DNA of 64,000 nt from positions 868,001 to 932,000 of the forward strand of contig NC_019791.1 of the NCBI RefSeq assembly GCF_000317795.1, given 5' to 3'. This stretch comes from Caldisphaera lagunensis DSM 15908. Its GTDB lineage: Archaea > Thermoproteota > Thermoprotei_A > Sulfolobales > Acidilobaceae. Below, one piece after another: positions 39,346-56,953 of this stretch (position 1 is the stretch's first letter; every line of letters begins with the position of its first letter). Made by a program: the position numbers and the translations under genes. The notes beneath the pieces are model-generated. The model did no database searches, was not told the DNA's origin, and saw only the letters and a program-made list of their open reading frames with translations.

Positions 39346-39436
39346 GGGCCCGTAGTCCAGTTTGGCAGGATGCGGGGTATGCATATGCACCCGAATCGGG
39401 TCCCTGTGGTCGGGGGTTCAAATCCCCCCGGGCCCA
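39346..39436 (+). tRNA. tRNA-Pro(CGG) with a 17-base intron after position 32
   Basis: Cloverleaf: acceptor GGGCCCG pairs CGGGCCC with discriminator A; D-stem GTCC/GGAT; T-arm GGGGG-TTCAAAT-CCCCC; no encoded CCA. The anticodon stem CGGGG pairs CCCTG only if 17 bases (39379-39395) are removed, leaving loop T-T-C-G-G-G-T, anticodon CGG, Pro. The precursor forms a textbook bulge-helix-bulge: bulge G-T^A, 4-bp helix CGGG (39373-39376) with CCCG (39390-39393), bulge A-A^T, and a TGCA/TGCA inner stem. An Ala(TGC) reading with the intron at 37/38 gives A33 and lacks the G3-U70 identity pair, so it is rejected. Confidence 0.9.
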
Positions 39437-55432: not shown

Positions 55433-56779
55433 CTAATAATACTTTTTAATAAAAATGGAAGAAAATCCTATTAGAAATTCTGCAGATTTTATTAAAAATA
55501 ATTTCGGATTAAAATCTTGATACATCATAGATTTATAATAGTTTATTAAGTCACATGGCGATCTAAAATAATTGTGTTTGTCTATAAAGCAAGTATTTAA
55601 TTCAATTTCGGTATTACAAACGTCTTTACTAAATAAATTTTTACCAAATTTCAATTCCAATAAATTAAGGCTTTGGATAGCAGTGAATTACCCCGCCCTT
55701 TCGGAGGGCATCCTCACCTCAAGATGGGGATTTCCTGCTTCTCAGAGCAACCTCGATCTCCCTACACATAGTGGAGGTTTCATCGAACGGAACCGTTTCG
55801 TTATGCCCCATGTGGAAGAGAGGTTATGGAGGGTTTGCTCACCACAGGTTTAATCCCCAGTCCCTAGGGTACGACCCAGCGCTTTCAGTTGAAGCCTAAT
55901 AATCTTCTCCCCGAAATAATAAATCCTTCTATAAGGAGACTATTCATCCCCTCACTCACGGTAGGAGACCCACCCTTAACCCCCATAAAGTTAAATCTTT
56001 GTAGGAAAAAAGAATGACAAGCGTTGGTCTTTATGGCAGGGAGGAGGTCAGAAACTTGCACTTTTTTCCTTATATCGAATTGTTCTATTGGAGCACGATT
56101 AGAGGTTGATGATAAAGAATGCCTAAAGTAAGTTAATTTTTTGATCGAATATCATACATACTTCGTAAGGATAGTTTAGTACAATATTAAAAATTAAATG
56201 ATAAGACACATTGATATTCCTTTTCAAAAATGAATCCCCTATTCAATAATATCTGTTTTTACGGCAATACTACTAAGATTAAAATAAAAAACCTCTTTTT
56301 AAGAATAAGTTTAGATAGTCAATTTTTCCTTAAACCTAGATTTACGATATATTCATATTCAAAATTTTTATTTTGCATGATTTCATTTCCAAATACATAG
56401 ATATCTTTTCTTCCATTATGAAAACATATCATTTCCCTACAATAGCGTTAATTCTTAACATGATTCTCATAATATAATATATAACTTAATCTTTCAGGCA
56501 TATATAAATCGTCATCTTCTAAGAATGTTATAATACTTCCTTTTGATTGCTCAATGCCTATAGATAATTTTCCACTATGGGTTGTATCGTTTGTAACTAT
56601 GTTTTTCCATGAGTTTCTATTGATTATATTATAGGAATTTATATCACTAAATTTTTTATAACTATTACTTCATATTTGTTGTGATCCAAAGTTTGATTTT
56701 CAAGGCTTTTTAAAGCTTAGGGAAGAAATTGTTTTCTATTATATGCAGTAACAATAACTGATATATAAGGCTCTGTCAT
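55433..56779 (-). pseudogene. GT2 glycosyltransferase of the local family, decayed and split by an IS605/TnpB relic
   Basis: Read leftward from 56779: M-T-E-P, YISVIVTAYNRKQFLP, an in-frame TAA, ALKSLENQTLDHNKYEVIVI, a frameshift, NSWKNIVTNDTTHSGKLSIG, SIITFLEDDDLYMPERLSYI, more shifts, and NLSSIAVKTDIIE near 56230. These are the N-terminal and middle parts of the local GT2 family. After the IS relic, the frame 55660-55433 (FRSPCDLINYYKSMMYQDF, then SAEFLIGFSSIF) resembles the C-terminal region of the intact copy at 46.2 kb (RPISSFYDFLILYKL). The gene was thus apparently interrupted by the element and then decayed. Confidence 0.65.
55661..56060 (-). mobile_element. IS200/IS605-type element relic: TnpB tail and right-end hairpin
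   Basis: A composition island richer in G+C than its surroundings. Leftward, 35 codons (55823-55719) read PLFHMGHNETVPFDET, S-T, MCREIEVALRSRKSPS, stop, similar in style to the C-terminal tail of crenarchaeal TnpB proteins. The stop is followed by GGTGAGGATG and the hairpin GCCCTTTCGGAGGGC (55695-55709), the kind of right-end structure from which omega-RNA is made. Upstream frames are broken by stops and shifts. The RuvC nuclease domain and TnpA are absent. Exact element ends were not determined. Confidence 0.6.
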
Positions 56780-56953
56780 ATTAATTCCCTAAATATATAT
56801 TTTGATATCTGCTATATATCTCTTCTATCATAGATTTAAAATTAATCAAAGCTAGGATCTTTACAAAGCTAGCACTTTTAAAAATTTTTAAAATCTTTTA
56901 TAAATTGTCTGAGAATCTAATATTACGATAAAAACGTAAATCAATAAAATGTT

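Follow-up and report, generated by a model that had tools for sequence, protein, structure and literature searches.

The island that lies within a GT2 glycosyltransferase pseudogene of Caldisphaera lagunensis DSM 15908 is a complete small non-autonomous element derived from the IS200/IS605 family, and not a tnpB stump. All positions below refer to the analyzed window, a stretch of 64,000 nucleotides (contig NC_019791.1, positions 868,001 to 932,000), and the features are listed in Table 1. Judged by its size, host group, ends, and published description, the element looks like SMN1, a 320-bp element of S. islandicus that needs a functional ISC1733 transposase according to the accessible part of its description (PMC3718332). 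Our preferred reading, to which we assign a probability of about 0.7, is that it is an SMN1-type element that has kept a guide scaffold and would use TnpA and TnpB in trans where a partner is present. In structure, it resembles an ISC1733-like TnpA+TnpB element with an internal deletion that left the transposition ends and the omega-RNA scaffold in place. We found a repeat family with common ends and target, an RNA region homologous to the 3′ end of tnpB, a covarying fold, and no conserved reading frame. The original prediction, a GT2 gene split by a TnpB/IS605 relic with an omega-RNA-like end, is partly confirmed as an observation and partly supported as an interpretation.

Table 1. Features of the element and of the split gene (positions in the window).
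Feature	Position	Strand	Basis
SMN1-like non-autonomous IS200/IS605 element, 308 bp, starting CTTTATGGGGG and ending AATTCAC	55683..55990	-	Repeat family in the genome and alignment; ends deduced from the pARN4 copy and the empty site in pARN3
TTTAA target motif (TAM), left of the element	55991..55995	-	Precedes all 10 copies in the genome; measured TAM of S. islandicus TnpB7 (PMC11043419)
Left end (LE) common to the TnpA/TnpB element	55933..55990	-	Family profile match to the TnpA/TnpB element of the same genome, E 8e-20
AT-rich spacer; candidate promoter region in relatives	55898..55932	-	Least conserved segment, mean pairwise identity 0.45
Structured RNA region, omega-RNA-like	55683..55897	-	RNAalifold and pair counts, 16 copies
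163-nt core, model R1: H1 (55829-55840 with 55745-55754), AGAAGCAGGAA, hairpins H2 and H3, AATTCAC	55683..55845	-	R1 matches; covariation, 50 copies
Hairpin H2 (ATCCCCATC TTGA GGTGAGGAT)	55710..55731	-	Fold model, covariation counts
Hairpin GCCCTTTCGGAGGGC (+ strand letters), at family hairpin H3 (55690-55709)	55695..55709	-	Sequence and family fold
Predicted guide, first 20 nt past TTCAC, the right flank of the insertion site	55663..55682	-	Homology to TnpB7 (PMC11043419)
GT2 pseudogene, upstream part	55991..56800	-	Several stops and at least one frameshift; protein matches and junction frame
GT2 pseudogene, probable downstream part	55433..55682	-	In-frame junction with the upstream part; nothing significant by BLASTP

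The island stands out by its G+C content of 0.50, against 0.21 and 0.27 in its 500-base flanks. No protein gene was found in the 308-bp element, and the family copies do not keep a reading frame. Because no gene for the Y1 transposase TnpA lies inside, the element is a non-autonomous derivative of IS200/IS605. Both GGTGAGGATG and the hairpin GCCCTTTCGGAGGGC, which had been singled out from the letters alone, are present and lie in conserved parts of the repeated element. A known Rfam RNA was rejected as a candidate: the island has no match at the gathering score, and two matches at E 2 and 4.1 are far under their gathering scores. An Rfam search of four other loci (L006, L110, L147, and L205) gave four matches, none to an omega or IS605 family. 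Elsewhere in the window, a stretch of 91 nt (39346-39436) matches a tRNA model of 71 positions and possibly contains an intron.

A search of the same genome (1,546,846 bp, one contig) with positions 55600-56130 returned, besides the query itself, six near-full-length matches at 77-86% identity, together with additional shorter matches at 69-82% and below. Ten full-length copies, including that in the window, were aligned end to end. All 10 have TTTAA on the left side. As for the right ends, six read TTCAC, and the others are TTTAC, TCCAC, TTCGC, and one unresolved end. The flanks of these copies differ, giving ten different guide positions.

The exact ends were taken from related plasmids. S. 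islandicus plasmid pARN4 carries, between TTTAA and TGAAGTT, a named 321-bp copy that is taken to be SMN1 and has 76% identity to that in the window (...GGTTTTAA/CTTAATTAGG...GTAGTTCAC/TGAAGTT...). Plasmid pARN3 has the same site with the element absent and no target duplication (...GGTTTTAA/TGAAGTT...), from which it follows that the element sits directly 3′ of TTTAA without duplication. The window copy has the same end and target motifs. Plasmids pYN01 and Saccharolobus shibatae pB12E5 are also element-free there, with CTGA and CTAA replacing TTAA. Further named copies are found in plasmid pHVE14 and in Acidianus tailed spindle virus; together with that of pARN4, these are 90-91% identical to the query copy from genome G192. 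The copy in the virus genome is a full SMN1-like one (L207:1501-1827), in which an annotated hypothetical protein of 57 aa runs antisense (L207 1654-1827); this may not be a real gene. Scanning viral contigs by pattern returned 21 stretches. We saw no empty allele of the window site, and a search of the three genomes of the G207 genus for the empty sites of two copies of G207 found none.

The family extends well beyond this genome. R1, a model of the last 163-167 nt, gave scaffold matches in at least 27 of the 214 genomes of the order in a genome search with stricter filters. We examined 67 loci, 27 returned by the R1 search and 40 picked among the matches listed; some of these (e.g., L109, L116, L120, and L124) are duplicates of copies aligned before. 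These comprise 45 contiguous solo elements, 13 3′ ends of TnpB elements, and 9 partial or rearranged copies. Two of the 45 solo loci also match TnpB, L130 in its tail and L153 in a neighboring gene. At the former (L051/L130:1501-1758; G042, C1 ~786.8 kb), the left end of a 258-bp solo element is joined to the last tnpB codons, and this TnpB-tail type is a second route to a guide-only element. Matches over 284-353 bp that include TTTAA define a set of 55 copies, which leaves out the four repeats named above, the TnpB-type L130, and L118 and L162, where the right end is not reached; L049, a near-identical copy in G002, was not added. The copies of G002 and G003 have common flanks. Reduction of the 55 elements at 93% identity gave a set of 50.

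The relationship to IS200/IS605 is evident from the partner elements. The family profile matches both ends of a TnpA/TnpB element in the same genome (C1 ~1272.8-1274.5 kb; left end E 8e-20, right end E 5e-11), and the contrary outcome named beforehand, an island unlike any IS200/IS605 element, did not occur. Both ends of a TnpA+TnpB element in G030 are matched as well, and in these two elements the middle of the profile (model ~92-216) is unmatched. Since matches occur at LE and RE, the window sequence is a whole short element. The solo elements and the 1.7-kb TnpA+TnpB elements have in common the left end, the right end, and parts of the tnpB 3′ end, i.e., the omega-RNA region. A truncated tnpB stump is rejected by the repeat family in this genome and in the order. 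We accordingly give almost no credence to the view that the island is the decayed 3′ remainder of one full TnpB element once inserted in the GT2 gene: the right end and the last codons are indeed common with intact TnpB, but the inner sequence that is unmatched in TnpB elements is present between these ends in copy after copy and in many genomes and therefore does not reflect independent decay. The TnpB tail proposed earlier holds insofar as the last codons of the island, RSRKSPS, resemble intact TnpB C-termini (GRSRKSPSRGGDAPSVRAG), but it belongs to a whole non-autonomous element rather than to a truncated tnpB gene. The overlap between the omega RNA and the 3′ end of tnpB accounts for this resemblance; no TnpB-like frame was found upstream of RSRKSPS in the translations, read by eye.

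Several comparisons connect the solo elements with the omega RNA of their partners. Among the matches listed, R1 matches cover 122-125 nt in the 13 TnpB ends and 144-168 nt in the 45 solo elements, the exception among the latter being the TnpB-type solo in G042 (125 nt). The TnpB ends fold into a long stem followed by the right-end hairpins and AGTTCAC, and a CCTGT/GCAGG helix surrounds the stem. These parts follow one another in the same way in the solo RNA, where the first stem is longer and 86.6% of cells in the CCTGT/GCAGG helix are paired. A 40-nt profile of the 5′ side of the solo scaffold had its best match collinear in the tnpB end in 8 of 10 TnpB elements (E 0.0013-0.33) and an 11-nt match in a ninth (E 0.75), with no collinear match in the TnpB element of G030. 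The scaffold is thus collinear with the tnpB 3′ end and right end, as expected of an omega RNA, and the 40-nt profile adds weakly to this. The guide position also adjoins the TAM in the empty site, given the TTTAA to the left of every copy in this genome and the TTTAA plus flank in pARN3. From these sequence comparisons, we conclude that the partner's omega-RNA region is present in the solo elements, with the first stem changed. An omega-RNA-like end, as originally proposed, is present, but it extends beyond the last hairpin to 163-215 nt with a covarying fold. The guide suggested at that time, AATTCACTG, turned out to be mostly scaffold and placed 7 nt off. By homology to TnpB7, the guide begins after TTCAC, and that of the window copy is predicted to be TGCTATCCAAAGCCTTAATT.

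The secondary structure is conserved with covariation, another feature expected of an omega RNA, although one of five measures fails the slide control. For 16 copies, RNAalifold gave 67 pairs, 22 of them double-changed (shuffled 12.4±2.3; slid 7-12), a figure that, like the other covariation figures below, is an indication and not a probability, because the shuffles keep relatedness and the fold was derived from part of the counted sequences. In the same copies, 94.2% of cells are paired (shuffled 90.7±0.4; slid 45-57%) and the covariation score is 0.326 (shuffled 0.255±0.008; slid 0.099-0.144), with further pair types not unusual against shuffles (80, mean 76.9; 68/500 as high). A variant in which the local hairpin H2 replaces the LE-RE helix has 21 double-changed pairs (12.8±2.2; 1/500 as high). 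For the 50 less similar copies and 47 pairs, paired cells amount to 89.0% (shuffled 86.1±0.3; slid 45-52%), double-changed cells to 77 (shuffled 34.0±5.0; slid 31-55), and the covariation score to 0.235 (shuffled 0.191±0.005; slid 0.083-0.127). Double-changed pairs number 23 of 47 against 14.2±2.4 in shuffles, and this is the measure not above the slid versions (17-25), the other four being higher. The long-range helix H1, which spans ~100 nt, has double changes in 7 of its 10 pairs, one of which is CG 16, AU 12, and GC 8 times. Folded alone, the window copy is no better than shuffles (z -1.21; 10/100 as good), and another copy of the same genome folds better than shuffles (z -4.14).

A conserved protein was rejected as an explanation of the RNA region, as most gap runs (109 of 134) are 1 or 2 long. 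In the last 195 nt, frames of at least 63 codons are open in 28 of 55 copies antisense and in 19 of 55 copies sense, both above expectation; for the antisense frame, gaps break the frame between copies.

SMN1 has been described as a MITE moved by a transposase, the only requirement named for it in the accessible part of that description (PMC3718332). The present elements could likewise be ordinary MITEs, which depend on nothing but TnpA in trans and whose inner RNA-like part is carried along passively or serves TnpA as a DNA structure. Micro-elements that consist of ends only do exist. An 80-bp TTTAA...TTCAC element in the same genome (L013:1506-1585; C1 ~1,001.4 kb) joins part of the left end directly to the final part of the right end and lacks the omega-RNA core, and a 107-bp one occurs in G001 (L135), so ends alone can be inserted or survive. 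However, conservation of the inner RNA region is close to that of the left end (mean pairwise identity 0.67-0.72 and 0.74, respectively, against 0.45 in the spacer), H1 covaries at a distance from the ends, and this genome has one micro-element, maybe a later deletion, against ten full copies. We consider the ordinary MITE rather unlikely and retain the reading in which the guide scaffold is kept.

Intact TnpA+TnpB elements with the same ends occur in related genomes. In G207, for example, such an element (L147 593-2325) contains a 147-codon TnpA frame with HFH, the motif of Y1 transposases, and a 414-codon TnpB, without stops. In C. lagunensis, the search with PF01797 gave one match, a truncated 96-codon open frame covering profile positions 48-121 with HFR where HFH is expected, and the matching TnpB is interrupted by three stops, one each of TGA, TAG, and TAA. 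One TnpB in this genome reaches E ≤ 1e-60. PF07282 gave three matches above the cut-off, the other two being open frames of 202 and 121 codons that are not close to the partner TnpB, and a contig search with a TnpB fragment gave two distant relatives (41-44%). With both partners broken, it is most likely that the window copy cannot move and that any RNA it makes goes unused; this copy is probably an inert fossil that carries little weight by itself. In G030, TnpB is split over two frames, and the PF01797 search found no match reaching E 1e-4. Elsewhere in that genome (L107; C1 ~63.4 kb), an SMN1-like right part abuts, antisense, the 3′ end of another TnpB family, as judged by eye.

Fifteen of the 27 genomes in which the scaffold was matched have a TnpB at E ≤ 1e-60, in part only ~38-40% identical, and 12 do not; a TnpA at E ≤ 1e-15 is found in 15, some ~35% identical. 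The 12 genomes, together with the distant TnpB proteins in part of the other 15, indicate that many copies persist without a close partner. G201 has at least 13 scaffold matches, yet its sole TnpB at E ≤ 1e-60 is only 39% identical, and many of its solo copies are without an evident close nuclease partner. The 12 genomes would also fit a host that took over the solo RNA for regulation, acting with TnpB in trans or with a different protein, but the ten copies with ten different guide positions in C. lagunensis make this very improbable.

The surrounding gene agrees with a GT2 gene split by the element. On the minus strand, ~56337-56800 holds an N-terminal GT2 remnant, as had been read from the sequence, in two frames with stops inside; it is 36-69% identical to five GT2 proteins from this and related genomes (E 4e-12 to 7e-31). 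From its start at ~56800, the first ~40-50 residues are 58-69% identical to all five and the next ~60-100 residues 36-57% identical to four of them. At 56242-56283, there is a weak match to the NNSSI block of the GT2 family (E 0.07). A GT2-like C-terminus had been assigned to 55433-55660, and this open frame is not significantly similar to any of the GT2 proteins compared (best BLASTP E 0.11 and 0.32), but it does join across the junction. When 55683-55990 is removed, the flanks form a single 136-codon open frame starting YSIKKLTYFRHSLSST / YSIKKLTYFRHSLSSTSN, which falls to 63 or 95 codons when the junction is moved by 1 or 2 bases. The start of this frame resembles KRLTYYRVH or KRLTLYRVHSASTS of the GT2 family by eye only, and BLASTP of the frame gave nothing significant (best E 1.0). 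Because a single frame runs across the junction, the split of a GT2 gene by the element is likely correct.

The cycle that we propose for SMN1-type elements is as follows. The Y1 transposase TnpA of a full element would excise the solo element and insert it next to TTTAA, on the 3′ side, and no target sequence would be duplicated. The solo RNA would be transcribed from a promoter within the left end or close to it, and the first 15-25 nt past UUCAC, which are the flanking DNA of each copy, would be used as the guide. TnpB made elsewhere may then bind the solo RNA in trans and would cut TTTAA plus guide, i.e., the empty site left after excision, and repair from a sister copy would restore the element. 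Transcription from near the left end is suggested by the TATA-like motif TTTWWA in the spacer of relatives, which occurs in 16 of the 21 parsed copies (out of 55; window copy not among them) against 5.1 expected; the motif was not found in the spacer of the window copy (55898-55932). In solo copies, H1 has another length and another sequence than in TnpB elements, and TnpB might therefore reject the solo RNA.

The nearest characterized systems cover parts of this cycle. The available portion of the TnpB7 report gives TTTAA as the TAM of this S. islandicus nuclease, TTCAC as the right end, and the guide directly after it, an RNA of ~176 nt as needed, and activity with a guide RNA transcribed elsewhere (PMC11043419). 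By this description rather than by sequence comparison, the TnpB7 reRNA (omega RNA) resembles the solo RNA in TAM, UUCAC end, and scaffold size class, whereas it is part of the tnpB region there and a separate unit without tnpB here. ISC1733-like IS605 elements (TnpA+TnpB), so named after the description in PMC3718332, share the left end, right end, TTTAA/TTCAC, and omega-RNA parts, whereas the window element has no tnpA or tnpB and a longer, different inner helix H1. SMN1 itself is alike in size class, related archaeal hosts, lack of genes, and an IS605-type partner; unlike it, the window copy is diverged and its genome has no intact partner. Stand-alone omega RNAs away from the nuclease gene were reportedly described by Altae-Tran and colleagues in 2021; the guide scaffold is likewise away from the nuclease gene here, where it lies inside an element with transposition ends. 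Archaeal IS200/IS605-associated omega RNAs, including circles, have been reported (PMC12558985, in the part available), and omega RNA is not mentioned for SMN1 in the accessible part of its description (PMC3718332). By titles and the starts of abstracts, with most subscription papers outside the scope, we found no literature tying SMN1 to omega RNA, which is no proof of novelty.

We see roughly an even chance that SMN1-type elements are guide-only selfish elements, which would jump by means of TnpA and persist by means of TnpB, both acting in trans, and that selection on the guide RNA, not the ends alone, maintains them across the order, plasmids, and a virus. In plasmids, TnpB acts as a retention factor and drive, according to the available portion of a recent report (PMC11870625). 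If the inner part is a working omega RNA, SMN1 would also be a parasite of an RNA-guided nuclease, and TnpB could drive the plasmid and virus copies into new replicons. Within the family, one guide scaffold occurs naturally in long and short forms, which may be used for finding the parts that TnpB needs.
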